A stretch of 64,000 nt of DNA from a virus. The notes under the pieces are model-generated. The model was not told the origin of the DNA, searched no databases, and was given only the letters and a program-made list of their open reading frames with translations. Shown in pieces: positions 33,909-60,099 of the stretch. The position numbers and the translations under genes are program-made. The stretch spans positions 81,012 to 145,011 of IMG/VR virus record IMGVR_UViG_3300033153_004214, one strand, 5' to 3'. Within the stretch, counting starts at the first letter, position 1; the number at the start of each line of letters is the position of its first letter.

Positions 33909-34308
33909 GGGGCCGATATAGATTCGACGTGTTGGTCGAGTTGTGTTGCTGCGCTCCGAGGATACCCGGTTGGCCTCGTTAATCATCCGGGGAAACGATC
34001 AACTGCCAAGGATGACAAGAAGGTCATCAAGGTAGACTTCACGCTGCGTAAGGGCACCAGCGTTCGCGTTGCTGCCTAGCCTAGCCGAAGTCTCCGTCAC
34101 TGAGTAGCCGCCAGTGGCTAACCCCGCTCCTGCACAAGTCCCGGTGCAGCAGAAGGCAACAGGGACGGACGGCACCCAGAGGGTGTTGACTTCAGGGAAA
34201 GCGACCTGAGAGGCTTGCCTTGTGTGCCGGATACAGAACACTTGGCTACGAGCGTAGACGCGCATGATGAACCCGGCACGGACGGGGGTGCAAATCCCCC
34301 CGGCTCCA
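33909..34308 (+). ncRNA. ssrA: Phage-encoded tmRNA
   Basis: The 5' end GGGGCCGATATAGATTCGAC and 3' end GGGGG-TGCAAAT-CCCCC, CGGCTCC, A are the tRNA-like ends of tmRNA; GGGGCCG (33909-33915) pairs with CGGCTCC (34301-34307). CCA is not encoded. The only tag frame ending in the usual small residues starts at GCC 34005 and stops at TAG 34077-34079: it begins AKDDKKVI and ends RVAA, 24 residues in all, much longer than the usual 8-15. tmRNA frees stalled ribosomes and tags the product for proteolysis. A boxA-like sequence lies six bases upstream. Confidence 0.92.
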
Positions 34309-39640: not shown

Positions 39641-40816
39641 ATGAATCGACTTCAGGAAGCACGACGGCGAATCCTAGAGATGACGGGCCGAGACCTCTGG
39701 GGTGGTATTGACTGGGATTTCATTTCGATGGCACAGCACTTTAATGCTGTGCAGGACCTTGGCACCCGGTTCTCTGGCGTTGATGGTGACATGGTTCACT
39801 TCGACACACAGTCCGAGAGCACGCCGGGGCACGAATGGCATCAGTGGATTCGGATGACTGAGCTACCGGATGTCATTGAAGACCCGGACATGACCATACA
39901 GGACAAGGTCAGGCTGGCGCTACAGGGTGATCTTCAAGTCCACTGCAACTGCTTTACCGGGGATGTGAAGGTTCGTTTGTTGGACGGTCGAGAGCTATCC
40001 TTTGAGGAGATTTGGGAAGAGTTTGGTTCCAAAAAGTCATTACGGGTCTGCTCTTCTGATGAAAATGGTAACTTTGTTCCCAAGAAGGCCACCTGTATCA
40101 AAACGCGAAAGGTCAAGAAGCTCATTCGAGTGACCTTGGACAATGATGAGTCCTTCACCTGCACTCCAGATCACAAGATCAGGATGCGTGATGGTTCTTA
40201 CCGGAGGGCAGACGGGTTGAATCTAAAGGATAGTCTGCTATCCTTGTTTAAGGTTGGGGTTATAGACAACCATAAGGTTGTTTCAGTAGAGCAGCTATCA
40301 GTGTCCAAGCCAGTCCAAGTCTATTGTCTCAATGTGGCTGGGACTCATAACTTTGCACTGGTTGCTGGGGTCTACGTGCACAACTGTCCTGCGTTCAAGT
40401 ATTGGGGCTACCAGTACATCACTACGCAGCTTGGGGCGGCTGTGACCCCCGAGCATCGACCACCCAACGTAAGAAACCCGCAGCGCAAGGGAGACGTGTG
40501 CAAGCACCTCGCTTTGGTGCTCAGGGTTCTTCCCTTTTGGTGGAACAACATCGCTGGGGAACTTGCCAAGCAAGGGTACGACCGATTCACTCAGCCCAAG
40601 GTTCAGCAGCAAGGTGAGCAGGAGCGGGCACAAGCTGACCAGATACAGCAGGACGATGACCAGCAGAAGGACTTCAACCAGCAGACTAGACAGGCTTTCT
40701 TACGGGACCTGTGGGGTAGAACTGGGCGACGAGAACGGGGAGAGGAATCTCTCAAGAGGGGACGGCGTTGCAAAACGTTCGAGGAGCTAGTGGAAGAACA
40801 ACTGAACTCTGTATAG
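39641..40816 (+). CDS. SWIM-type zinc protein interrupted by a mini-intein
   Basis: 391 residues before splicing. The host protein reads ...LQVHCN, then after the intein CPAFKYWGYQ ... GDVCKHLALVL, forming the CxC ... CxH zinc site of SWIM domains, which bind DNA or protein. The intein (39950-40384) separates the two Cys of the CxC, so the zinc site exists only after splicing. The C-terminus is a Gln/Asp/Arg-rich helix ending KTFEELVEEQLNSV, the F-E-x-L-V motif of the putative head proteins. Confidence 0.85.
   Translation: MNRLQEARRRILEMTGRDLWGGIDWDFISMAQHFNAVQDLGTRFSGVDGDMVHFDTQSESTPGHEWHQWIRMTELPDVIEDPDMTIQDKVRLALQGDLQVHCNCFTGDVKVRLLDGRELSFEEIWEEFGSKKSLRVCSSDENGNFVPKKATCIKTRKVKKLIRVTLDNDESFTCTPDHKIRMRDGSYRRADGLNLKDSLLSLFKVGVIDNHKVVSVEQLSVSKPVQVYCLNVAGTHNFALVAGVYVHNCPAFKYWGYQYITTQLGAAVTPEHRPPNVRNPQRKGDVCKHLALVLRVLPFWWNNIAGELAKQGYDRFTQPKVQQQGEQERAQADQIQQDDDQQKDFNQQTRQAFLRDLWGRTGRRERGEESLKRGRRCKTFEELVEEQLNSV
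39950..40384 (+). mobile_element. Mini-intein, 145 residues, no homing endonuclease
   Basis: Block A begins CFTGDVKVRLLDGRE; block B has TCTPDHKI with TxxH near residue 68; block F is YCLNVAGTHNFALVAG and block G ends GVYVHN before +1 Cys. The terminal His-Asn and Cys+1 are all present, so it should splice. At 145 residues there is no room for a LAGLIDADG or HNH endonuclease. Confidence 0.9.
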
Positions 40817-48447: not shown

Positions 48448-48675
48448 GTGACACGAGACAAGAAAGTAGCTCTTGCCATTGGTCGTGTTCTGAAGTATTG
48501 TAGGAATAAGGTGGAGATGACCCAGCAAGAGATCGCGGACGCTCTGGGGGTCTCCAGAACGCAGTACTGTAACTGTGAGAATGGACAAAGAGAAATGTCT
48601 CTTAACAAGTTCATCCTCTTCTGCCAAGCTGTCCACATCACGCCGGGCCAAGCCTTGCGCAATTTCCACATATAA
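48448..48675 (+). CDS. XRE-family HTH regulator
   Basis: 75 residues from GTG 48448. KVEMTQQEIADALGVSRTQY is the helix-turn-helix, followed by CENGQREMSLNKF, the usual next helices. It binds DNA as a small repressor-type protein. It may control the glycan cluster or the downstream intergenic region, which is rich in inverted repeats. Confidence 0.85.
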   Translation: MTRDKKVALAIGRVLKYCRNKVEMTQQEIADALGVSRTQYCNCENGQREMSLNKFILFCQAVHITPGQALRNFHI

Positions 48676-48807
48676 TCGTGCAGCAGCTTTTTGGTAGGCT
48701 GCGACTGCTTCCTTCTTGGTCTTGAAGTACCCAAGGTACTTTGTACGTCCATGGCAGGATATCTGAGCTTCCCACGGCTTACTTCGCTTCTTGTGGCCAG
48801 TACTATG
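48660..48807 (-). pseudogene. AP2-domain (HNH homing endonuclease) remnant
   Basis: The complementary strand encodes GHKKRSKPWEAQI, then RTKYLGYFKTKKEAVAAYQK and AAARLY, an AP2 DNA-binding domain as found at the end of HNH homing endonucleases. A stop precedes it in frame; the adjoining frame upstream (to about 48965) stays open, so one lost base near 48805 could link them. The 3' end runs into the antisense of the XRE gene. This is the only reverse-strand coding trace in the window. Confidence 0.6.
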
Positions 48808-49073
48808 TCAACACCCTCGATGGCCACCGCGCAAACGAGGTAATGAACGTCCCATCTTACCTCGTTTCCACGTTTCATCACCTTATTTCTGGCACACCAT
48901 ATCCTGTATCTCTTGTTCTGAAAAAGTACGAAGTGATGTGGTGTACTTTTTCGAGAGGCTACCACAACATGCTGAACTTCTTGACTTCAAATCCCAACTG
49001 CTCTAGAATAAGCACAACATGTTGGGGCAGGGTGCTTCTGAAAGTACCAGCATTTCGGAGGAACGACTAGGGG

Positions 49074-49254
49074 GCCTATTAGGGAGCCAAATAGGCATAC
49101 ATTGGTAAATGAAGGGGAATATATAAAAAGGGATATAGAGTCCAATGTATAGCTATTAGGAACCACATTGGCTCCCGAATGTTCTCGATCCCTTTTTCAA
49201 ATCTCCACGCTTCATCTCAGGATGTTTCAGGTGGAAACACCCTGATGGAGATTT
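49074..49254 (+). other. Intergenic region of nested inverted repeats
   Basis: GGGAGCCAA (49082-49090) pairs with TTGGCTCCC (49168-49176); inside it ATACATTGG (49097-49105) pairs with CCAATGTAT (49142-49150); GCCTATT (49074-49080) pairs alternatively with AATAGGC (49090-49096). Next, AAATCTCCA (49199-49207) pairs with TGGAGATTT (49246-49254), enclosing TCAGG/CCTGA and TGTTTC-AGGTG-GAAACA. This 600-base gap between the XRE gene and the head module holds no forward gene. It may be a regulatory RNA, an operator array or a replication/packaging site. Confidence 0.6.
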
Positions 49255-49314
49255 CAGACCGTACATTATGTTGACAGTAGAGAGTGCTCTGATTTTCACG
49301 ATTCAGGAGAAAAC

Positions 49315-50400
49315 GTGTCAGCGACCCTGCCAGTCTACAGATCAGCCCGCGAAGCCACAGGAGCAGTCCTGTCGGAAGAGCAGGTGGTCTCTGGTGATTT
49401 TGTCAAGGTAGGTGGCCCTGCACCCACCGCCGAGGGCGGCGAGGTCTTTGGCCGGATTGTTGCGGAAGATGACCCGGTCCTGCAGGGCAAGCGCCCGGCC
49501 CCGGGCAAGGTCATGGTGAAGATGGCCGACGGGTCCGTTCAGGAGTTCAGCCCTGAGGACCTTGAGAAGCAGCAGGCCATGGACGTGCCTCCTGAGTCAG
49601 TCAAGACACTATCAACTTCTGAAGATGACCAGATGATGAATGAGGTCTTGGCCGACCTGCAGCGCCGCCGGAAGCGCCGTTCCGACGATCCCTTCAAGGA
49701 TAAAGAGAAGAGCATGACCCAGCGTTTCGCGCAGCGGGGTCCGCTCACCCGCCTGAAGAAGTCGGACAAGATGAAGAAGCATTGGCGGGGTGTTCAGAAT
49801 CGTGCCTCGTACAAGGGCGGGGGACTTGCGCAGGAATCCCTTGAAGAGCAGGGACTCAATCAGCCGCAGTCGGAAGCGGACTTCGATCTTGATGATGAGG
49901 ACATGACCTCCGATGATCACTTTGGGACGCAGCCTGTTAAGATGGCATCCGAAGAGATCATCGACTCTGAAGAGGCATGGATGTTGACGCAGCGAACCTT
50001 CGAGCTTGCTGACGACATCATCCGCTCTCTGTCGGTTCATAAGGGGATGGTTTACTTTGAGAGCATGGATGACAATGCTGAAGAGGGCACGGTTACTGTC
50101 GTGCTCAATGGCATGGCTCCTCGGGAGATCATTGACCAGTTTATGGCGAATGCCGAGGACGAGATCGATATTCAGTTGATCGAGGAGCCTGAAGGTTCCA
50201 TGGAGGACAAGGACCTCCGTGGTCGGTGGGTTGTACAAGCTCGCGTTATTCTCCCCGAGGAAGAGTTCGAGGAGGAAGAGGACGAGCTTGCCGATGACAA
50301 TGAGGCGTACAAGAATCGTGGGAAGTACCCGGGCGAGATTTCTGTGGATGAGATTGATAGCGCCGGGGTTGGGGCGGCTGCACCGCAGGAGGTAGAGTAA
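49315..50400 (+). CDS. Putative head-module protein, acidic and helical
   Basis: 361 residues from GTG 49315 (CAGGAG upstream). A beta-rich start (SGDFVKVGGPAP, FGRIVAEDD) is followed by a basic helical part (RRRKRRSDDPFKDKEKS) and an acidic C-terminus. It begins the capsid gene run, so a virion role is likely from position. No family recognised. Confidence 0.65.
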   Translation: MSATLPVYRSAREATGAVLSEEQVVSGDFVKVGGPAPTAEGGEVFGRIVAEDDPVLQGKRPAPGKVMVKMADGSVQEFSPEDLEKQQAMDVPPESVKTLSTSEDDQMMNEVLADLQRRRKRRSDDPFKDKEKSMTQRFAQRGPLTRLKKSDKMKKHWRGVQNRASYKGGGLAQESLEEQGLNQPQSEADFDLDDEDMTSDDHFGTQPVKMASEEIIDSEEAWMLTQRTFELADDIIRSLSVHKGMVYFESMDDNAEEGTVTVVLNGMAPREIIDQFMANAEDEIDIQLIEEPEGSMEDKDLRGRWVVQARVILPEEEFEEEEDELADDNEAYKNRGKYPGEISVDEIDSAGVGAAAPQEVE

Positions 50401-55074: not shown

Positions 55075-55084
55075 GTGATCGCCC

Positions 55085-55147
55085 ACACGGTCGGCCCGAC
55101 CGTGTTGATGCCAACCGGTGGGGGGCCGAGAGGCCCCCCACTTTCGC
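55085..55147 (+). terminator. Hairpin plus strong terminator after the capsid gene
   Basis: ACACGGTC/GACCGTGT (55085-55105) is followed by GTGGGGGGCC-GAGA-GGCCCCCCAC (55118-55141) and TTTCGCTT. The second is a textbook rho-independent terminator, matching strong, separate capsid expression. Confidence 0.9.
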
Positions 55148-55167
55148 TTGGGGAAAGGGGGACGGTG

Positions 55168-56067
55168 ATGGGTAGCAAGAGATTTGCAAATTTGAATGGT
55201 TTTCCTGTAATTTTGCCGACACCGAGAGGTGGGCAGCGTGTCTTCCGCTCCGGTGAGTTCACTACCGAGTCATGGTTCTCTCGGTTCCAAGGAAACGGTC
55301 AACTCACGGAAGTTGATGACTCTTACACACCTGCCAAGGTCCGTAAGCCAAAAAGTCTCGCAATCAAGCGGCCAGTCAATTTCAATTCACCGGTCACTCC
55401 GCCAAGGGTTGGCCCGTGTGCGTTGTCGTGCCAGACTGCGTGCCAGAACAGTTGCGAGCTTGCCTGTGAATCGACCAAGCAGAACATTGTCGTCCATGCG
55501 AACTACGAACAGATCGGTGACACGTTCTTCTGTAGGCATTGCGATTGGAGCACGCAAAAGCCGGAGCGTGTCGCGGCGCACATGCAGCACTATCACCCGG
55601 ATGCAGAATCGGGACCCGAGCAGGAGCAGGGGTTTGCGAACGCGACTGATCCGGCTGGTGGGCCAAGGGCCAGTGGGGCATCCGCTCCACGTCCATCAGT
55701 TGGGAGGTCAGCCGTCCCCCCGCAGACCCCTGCTTCCCTCGGGTCCCTTGATGATGATGTTGATGAGAATACGAAGTGGTGGTACCGGCGCAACGGGGAG
55801 CTTTTCTGCAAGACGTGCGAGGTTGTTGGCCACGGATGGAAGACCTCGCACATGGATGCGATGCTTCGGCACTGTGTCAAGTACCACGAGATGCCAGAAG
55901 AAGAGGCGAAGATGCCGGAGCCTCCTGTTCCGGCACCTGATTCTGAGATCGTCGTTGAGGAGCCGGGGGCAGCAGGTTGGAAGTGTAAGGACTGTGGTCG
56001 CAGCTTTAAGACGAAAGGTGGCTTGAGCACACATAGCCGTTACTGCAAGGGTAATAGCGAGGAGTAG
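55168..56067 (+). CDS. Zinc-finger virion-module protein with a CxxxC ladder
   Basis: 299 residues from ATG 55168, chosen because the terminator ends just before it. CALSCQTACQNSCELACE places five Cys exactly four apart. Three zinc fingers follow: FFCRHCDW ... HMQHYH, LFCKTCEV ... HCVKYH and WKCKDCGR ... HSRYC. The middle is Pro/Ala-rich. It lies between the capsid and neck genes, so a virion or DNA-entry role is possible. Confidence 0.7.
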   Translation: MGSKRFANLNGFPVILPTPRGGQRVFRSGEFTTESWFSRFQGNGQLTEVDDSYTPAKVRKPKSLAIKRPVNFNSPVTPPRVGPCALSCQTACQNSCELACESTKQNIVVHANYEQIGDTFFCRHCDWSTQKPERVAAHMQHYHPDAESGPEQEQGFANATDPAGGPRASGASAPRPSVGRSAVPPQTPASLGSLDDDVDENTKWWYRRNGELFCKTCEVVGHGWKTSHMDAMLRHCVKYHEMPEEEAKMPEPPVPAPDSEIVVEEPGAAGWKCKDCGRSFKTKGGLSTHSRYCKGNSEE

Positions 56068-58980: not shown

Positions 58981-58989
58981 GAGTTGACC

Positions 58990-60099
58990 ATGGTTTTTGA
59001 TCGAACAAAACCAGAGAATCGAAGCAAGGTAAACTCTCTCGAAATACGGGATAACTTCTTTGCTCTTGCTGTCCACCATAGGGGTTCAATGCCTCCTGAG
59101 GACCCGCAGCTTGGTTATATCTGGCTTGATGATACTGATCCGCAAGACTGGCAGTTGAAGATGTATACAAAGAAGGGCAACCAAGATGCTGAATGGGTCC
59201 TTTTATTTACTCATGTTGAAAGTACCCCGGTAGTGAATTCTGCCATTGTTGTTAAAGATGATGGTGTTTTCAAAACTGCGGCTGGCACGTTAGATTTTCG
59301 TGCTGGTTTGACTGTTGCGATTGTTGATGGTGTTGCTCGGATTAGTGCCACTTCTATCTTGAACGGTGCCACTGGTGCTACAGGTGCCACTGGTTCAACT
59401 GGTCAGACTGGTGCTACAGGTGCCACTGGTGCCACTGGTTCAACTGGTGCTGTTGGTGCTACAGGTGTCACTGGTTCAACTGGTCAGATTGGTGCTACAG
59501 GTGCCACTGGTGCCACTGGTTCAACTGGTGCTGTTGGTGCTACAGGTGCTACTGGTTCAACTGGTTCAACTGGTGCTGTTGGTGCTACTGGTTCAACTGG
59601 TGCCACTGGTTCAACTGGTCAGACTGGTGCTACAGGTGCTGTTGGTTCAACTGGTGCTACAGGTGCTACTGGTTCAACTGGTGCTGTTGGTGCTACAGGT
59701 GTCACTGGTTCAACTGGTTCAACTGGTGCTGTTGGTGCTACAGGTGCTACAGGTGCCATGCTACAGGTGCCATTGGTTCAACTGGTGCTGTTGGTGCTAC
59801 AGGTGTCACTGGTTCAACTGGTTCAACTGGTGCTGTTGGTGCTACAGGTGCTACAGGTGCCATTGGTTCAACTGGTGCTGTTGGTGCTACAGGTGCTACA
59901 GGTGCCATTGGTGCTACTGGCCAGACTGGTGCCACTGGTGCTGTTGGTGCCACAGGTGCTACAGGTGCCATTGGTGCTACTGGCCAGACTGGTGCCACTG
60001 GTGCTGTTGGTGCCACTGGTCAGACTGGTGCCACTGGTGCTACAGGGGCGACAGGCGCAACTGGATATGACGGTGAAGATTTCGGCATCAATGGTGTGA
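58990..60099 (+). CDS. Collagen-like tail fibre, N-terminal part
   Basis: The first 125 residues ([20 protein letters not shown], then [17 protein letters not shown]) are a typical fibre-attachment region. From 59367 the frame is Gly-Ala-Thr, Gly-Ser-Thr and related triplets. At 59757 a 4-base gap in the repeat (GCCATGCTACAGG where other copies have GCCATTGGTGCTACAGG) shifts the frame, and the rest to 60099 is an out-of-frame Leu/Val run. The true protein continues in the 60096 gene. Confidence 0.8.
59367..60068 (+). repeat. Collagen-like triplet repeat tract
   Basis: About 700 bases of near-identical 9- to 27-base units (GGTGCTACA, GGTTCAACT, GGTGCTGTT, GGTCAGACT), encoding Gly-x-Thr/Val triplets. 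Such tracts form trimeric fibre shafts and slip easily during copying. One 4-base loss is seen at 59757. Confidence 0.95.

Follow-up and report, generated by a model that had tools for sequence, protein, structure and literature searches.

Genomic context of the gap

The window analyzed here, a 64,000-base stretch (bases 81012 to 145011) of an uncultured phage record of 145,011 bases, encodes a major capsid protein that is gp23-type by profile match (Pfam Gp23, E 1e-39) and a prohead protease (Peptidase_S77). Among named phages, the capsid is closest to those of Listeria phage LIS04 and Bacillus phage SP-15, at ~35% identity. An XRE/Cro-like regulator gene of the + strand (48448 to 48675, 75 amino acids; Pfam HTH_3, E 6e-8) is separated from the first gene of the head operon (49315 to 50400, + strand) by a gap that the original prediction had put at 640 bases and that measures 639 (48676 to 49314). 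This first head gene belongs to a family without assignment, conserved in the related sequences L003 (96%), L004, and L006 (40% in both). The genes adjoining the hairpins of the gap are all on the + strand. No tRNA or tmRNA was found in the gap; a phage-encoded tmRNA lies at 33909 to 34308 (tag AKDDKKVIKVDFTLRKGTSVRVAA), with tRNA-Pro and tRNA-Ile(TAT) genes close by.

The gap is not empty. Its left part contains an AP2-domain relic of an HNH homing endonuclease on the - strand (48660 to 48807; phrog_99 HNH endonuclease, E 7.7e-12, AP2 half only), which overlaps the 3' end of the XRE gene. The rest of the HNH gene is broken or absent, with no intact HNH part upstream of the relic. The GC content is 0.46 in the gap and 0.41 in the repeats described below, compared to 0.53 in the genome. 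An inverted pair at 48828 to 48872 surrounds the word ACCTCGTTT, which also occurs just upstream of the head operon of L006 and L004.

Other features of the window include an apparent mini-intein, recognized by eye only, in the open reading frame 39641 to 40816 (CNCFTGDVKVRLLDG ... VYVHNC), C2H2-zinc-finger-like stretches in the protein encoded directly 3' of the capsid gene (55075 to 56064), and a collagen-like Gly-X-Y repeat gene (58984 to 60099) that overlaps the frame 59366 to 60070 and apparently continues in this second frame over the repeat.

A dense cluster of inverted repeats

Dense nested inverted repeats had been predicted in the gap, and all the arms named were found as perfect complements. 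Between 49074 and 49254 there are six perfect inverted repeats of 7 to 10 bp, whose arms total 51 bp in 181 bases. Read on the + strand, they are the hairpin HP1 (GCCTATT/AATAGGC, 49074 to 49080 and 49090 to 49096, 7 bp), the stem S1 (GGGAGCCAA/TTGGCTCCC, 49082 to 49090 and 49168 to 49176, 9 bp), for which GGGGGCC at 49070 to 49076 is an alternative 5' partner, the stem S2 (ATACATTGG/CCAATGTAT, 49097 to 49105 and 49142 to 49150, 9 bp), the base of a terminator-like hairpin (AAAAAGGGAT/ATCCCTTTTT, 49125 to 49134 and 49188 to 49197, 10 bp) together with its inner stem (CCAATGT/ACATTGG, 49142 to 49148 and 49165 to 49171, 7 bp), and the lower stem of a last hairpin (49199 to 49207 and 49246 to 49254, 9 bp). 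These repeats are real and non-random. None of 2,000 dinucleotide shuffles reached six repeats and 51 bp (the shuffle mean was 0.84 repeats), nor did any of 2,414 genome windows reach 51 bp. At a fixed phase the best windows held 44, 43, and 42 bp, the last of them being the 49074 to 49254 region, which is among the densest places of the 145-kb genome.

As RNA, the region had fold z-scores of -2.9 on the + strand and -4.2 on the - strand, and 3.4% and 0.3%, respectively, of 322 background windows folded equally well. Rfam returned nothing relevant up to an E value of 5 between 48400 and 49600. A group I intron was considered on the basis of R- and S-like words (CGACTAG at ~49064 and GATATAGAGTCC at ~49132) and rejected, as there was neither an Rfam match nor an interrupted gene. 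The suggestion of a packaging or replication site found nothing in its support: the GC skew climbs steadily without a turn, and no second copy of the region exists elsewhere in the genome.

Since the structured region lies upstream of the AP2 relic in the direction of the latter, a mobile-element relic stays a rival and is, together with a plain bidirectional terminator (see below), one of the two main alternatives. The repeats would then represent a leader or terminal structure from an HNH-AP2 element that has decayed, read on the - strand and devoid of present phage function. The relic is directly downstream on that strand, which is also the one that folds best; a weak promoter-like site is found there (49321 to 49292), and the GC content of gap and repeats is below that of the genome. 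However, sites of this kind, at 9 of 12 matches, are common on the - strand (35 genome-wide), Rfam gave no intron or HNH-linked RNA, and the repeats, which are perfect, would have outlasted a gene whose HNH frame is broken. We regard this origin as unlikely.

A probable promoter between two putative operators

Upstream of the repeats, and outside the coordinates of the original prediction, a promoter-like site was found between two operator-like sites (48962 to 49027). The sigma70-like promoter TTGACT-N17-TAGAAT (48981 to 49009, + strand, predicted start near 49016) sits exactly between the putative XRE operators O1 (CCACAACATGCTGAAC, 48962 to 48977, + strand) and O2 (GCACAACATGTTGGGG, 49012 to 49027, + strand), the second of which covers the predicted start. 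Both are 16-bp half-palindromes, arranged as a direct repeat with a spacing of 50.

The identification of these sites comes from L006, a distant relative (capsid protein 73% identical, XRE protein 35% identical) in which the gap behind the XRE gene (L006:2381-2502) contains four 16-bp CCACAACATnTTGTGG-like palindromes. A matrix made solely from these four sites had its best match in the whole 145-kb genome at 49012 (18.1 bits; next 14.7), while O1 ranked 10 genome-wide, and both matches fall in the expected gap; the likeness had first been spotted by eye in both phages, which makes the matrix test not fully blind. Among 200 simulated genomes, 17 reached the top score of 49012 anywhere and four contained a close pair of such strength anywhere. 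The operator motif is thus common to two distant phages, in both of which the XRE gene adjoins repeated palindromic sites, two here and four in L006. Their overlap with a promoter was seen only here, at 48981 to 49009; no sigma70-like promoter was found beside the L006 operators, nor does L006, though it keeps the operators, offer an alignable leader.

In the 145 kb there are 23 sigma70-like sites that match at 10 or more of 12 positions, 22 on the + strand and one on the -. This 22:1 skew to the coding strand indicates that the class is probably largely real, and promoters of host type are probably in use throughout the genome. We consider the assignment of the operators and the promoter reasonably probable, and to a similar degree we expect the leader that follows to be transcribed on the + strand. 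The prediction of an RNA regulator or a multi-site operator therefore took the right direction, except that the two parts are adjacent and not one and the same: the multi-site operator, with the promoter inside it, lies at 48962 to 49027, beyond the repeats, whereas the nested repeats belong to the presumed transcribed leader downstream and offer two competing computed folds.

The repeats themselves could instead be a DNA operator cluster for one or several dimeric proteins, such as an activator of late genes, and not RNA. The recurrence of ATACATTGG-like and GCCTATT-like words in both orientations between 49075 and 49176 speaks for this reading. Against it, the spacings are irregular, the arms are unlike the XRE motif, and the genome contains the region only once. 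We regard it as very improbable.

Competing folds and a terminator-like hairpin

The original prediction had considered 49074 to 49096 and 49082 to 49176 mutually exclusive, correctly, since position 49090 is common to both and the hairpin loop contains the other arm. A more telling exclusion is that of 49082-49176 plus 49097-49150 versus 49125-49197 plus 49142-49171. On the + strand, set A consists of S1 (or its variant with 49070 to 49076) and S2, and set B of HP1 and the hairpin 49125-49134/49188-49197 with its inner stem 49142-49148/49165-49171, and the two sets contest 49142 to 49150 and 49165 to 49176. Computed in isolation, set B is favored (-34.1 versus -29.6 kcal/mol for S1 plus S2), but in a transcript starting at 49016 the order is reversed, with -55.4 kcal/mol for set A and about -48 for set B. 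When the RNA was masked up to 49120, set B, the terminator fold, returned. Masking only up to 49082 gave set A at 49194 and also the terminator fold at 49197, and the switch point is therefore not sharp. The computed folds thus contain mutually exclusive terminator and antiterminator stems, and the arrangement, judged from folds of one sequence, resembles the way attenuators are built.

The 49125 to 49197 hairpin, with its A- and U-tracts, resembles an intrinsic terminator. Its stem has GGGAT/ATCCC followed by a short U-tract (TTTTTC), with just three G-C pairs between the tract and an internal loop. No terminator was returned at this position by a simple scan, whose loop limit excludes a hairpin of this kind. 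It might be an unregulated bidirectional terminator accompanied by ordinary hairpins, insulating the glycosyltransferase and XRE genes from the head operon, with the alternative folds incidental. The A-tract and T-tract on either side make it symmetric on both strands, two of the four occurrences of CCCTTTTT in the 145 kb are its arms, and several other strong hairpins of the genome have T-rich tails on the + strand. On the other hand, S1 and S2 are equally perfect, overlap the terminator arms, and are unneeded for a plain terminator, and, with the promoter upstream of the hairpin, a plain terminator would stop that promoter's own transcript before the head genes. We therefore take a plain terminator to be somewhat unlikely.

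The last hairpin and the search for relatives

The last hairpin (49199 to 49254, + strand) has a 9-bp lower stem, a 9-nucleotide one-sided bulge, and a 12-nucleotide upper stem with one mismatch (49217 to 49228 and 49234 to 49245). By resemblance only, it may be likened to an RNase III site or a 5' stabilizer. We searched for relatives with the major capsid protein (in viral and genome contigs), the first head gene (as a single sequence and as an alignment), the XRE protein, the upstream glycosyltransferase, and three DNA patterns. The only close relative in the collections searched was L003, whose contig begins at 49229, inside this hairpin, and thus lacks the partner arm; in the 3' half that it retains, the upper arm is unchanged and the lower arm differs at two positions (49248, G to A; 49251, A to G). 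Across the viral and genome contigs searched, no relative spanning the repeats was found. A set of 36 contigs with paired CACAACATG words was discarded as chance, for none of the tested proteins of the window is encoded in them.

Proposed control of the head operon

The 48962 to 49314 region is most likely where the head operon is controlled, with its promoter, operator, and structured leader. The explanation that we prefer overall, although tentatively and at less than even confidence, is an XRE-controlled promoter followed by a structured leader with a conditional terminator. It is favored by inverted repeats far above chance, the operator motif, the position of the promoter between the operators, and the computed competition between folds, and weakened by the weak terminator, the better folding of the - strand than of the +, and the lack, in L006, of an alignable leader and of a sigma70-like promoter beside the operators. 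The terminator being conditional is possible but doubtful; conditional termination is nevertheless the best mechanism on offer for the overlapping stems, with the same doubt attached.

From the sequence data, the statistics on them, and the folds that compete, we infer the following course for XRE binding, transcription, termination, and signal. The XRE protein would bind 48962 to 48977 and 49012 to 49027, flanking and overlapping the promoter, and repress or time transcription. The transcript would start near 49016 with a 5' leader of ~300 nucleotides. In the hypothetical RNA switch, S1 (or the 49070 to 49076 variant) and S2 would form in the free leader and the polymerase would read on, while a ribosome, protein, or ligand covering about 49094 to 49120 would free 49142 to 49148 to pair with 49165 to 49171. 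The 49125 to 49197 hairpin with its U-tract could then form and stop transcription ahead of the capsid genes. The last hairpin might act as a processing or stabilizing element at the new mRNA 5' end.

In a translation-coupled variant, a near-leaderless peptide of 29 codons (49019 to 49108) would control the capsid operon, a ribosome that reaches the stop codon on S2 switching the terminator on. The frame has no ribosome-binding site; near its end it contains CTA, CTA, TTA, ATA, and ATA, codons that are rare in neighboring genes. Rare ATA codons taken together with the phage's tRNA-Ile(TAT) were considered as a further argument, which was dropped, ATA occurring at 7 per 1,000 genome-wide. Such attenuation seems highly improbable; if true, it would tie capsid synthesis to the capacity for translation in the course of infection.

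Should the leader operate in the proposed way, a large phage of the gp23 type would time its capsid operon by a repressor and conditional termination, in contrast to T4, in which timing relies on late sigma factors alone. Of the whole proposal, the operator motif common to two distant phages lends itself most directly to a test.

Comparison with known systems

No described counterpart of this control region was found in the literature searched, in which subscription journals were thinly covered. The last hairpin is similar to RNase III sites or stabilizing 5' hairpins such as the T7 R sites in being a hairpin of 56 nucleotides that lies between operon segments and is bulged internally on one side, a likeness of appearance only. 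The leader is similar to leader-type attenuators (trp-type 1-2-3-4 or riboswitch expression platforms) in its overlapping stems, one set of which ends in a U-tract stem, and in its position as a 5' leader before an operon. It differs from them in its weak terminator and in having no known aptamer, Rfam match, or supported leader peptide. As in the control regions of phage XRE/Cro repressors, an XRE gene stands beside paired palindromic operators flanking a promoter, but here the operators follow the XRE gene instead of preceding it, and they face the head operon, in a phage of the gp23 type.
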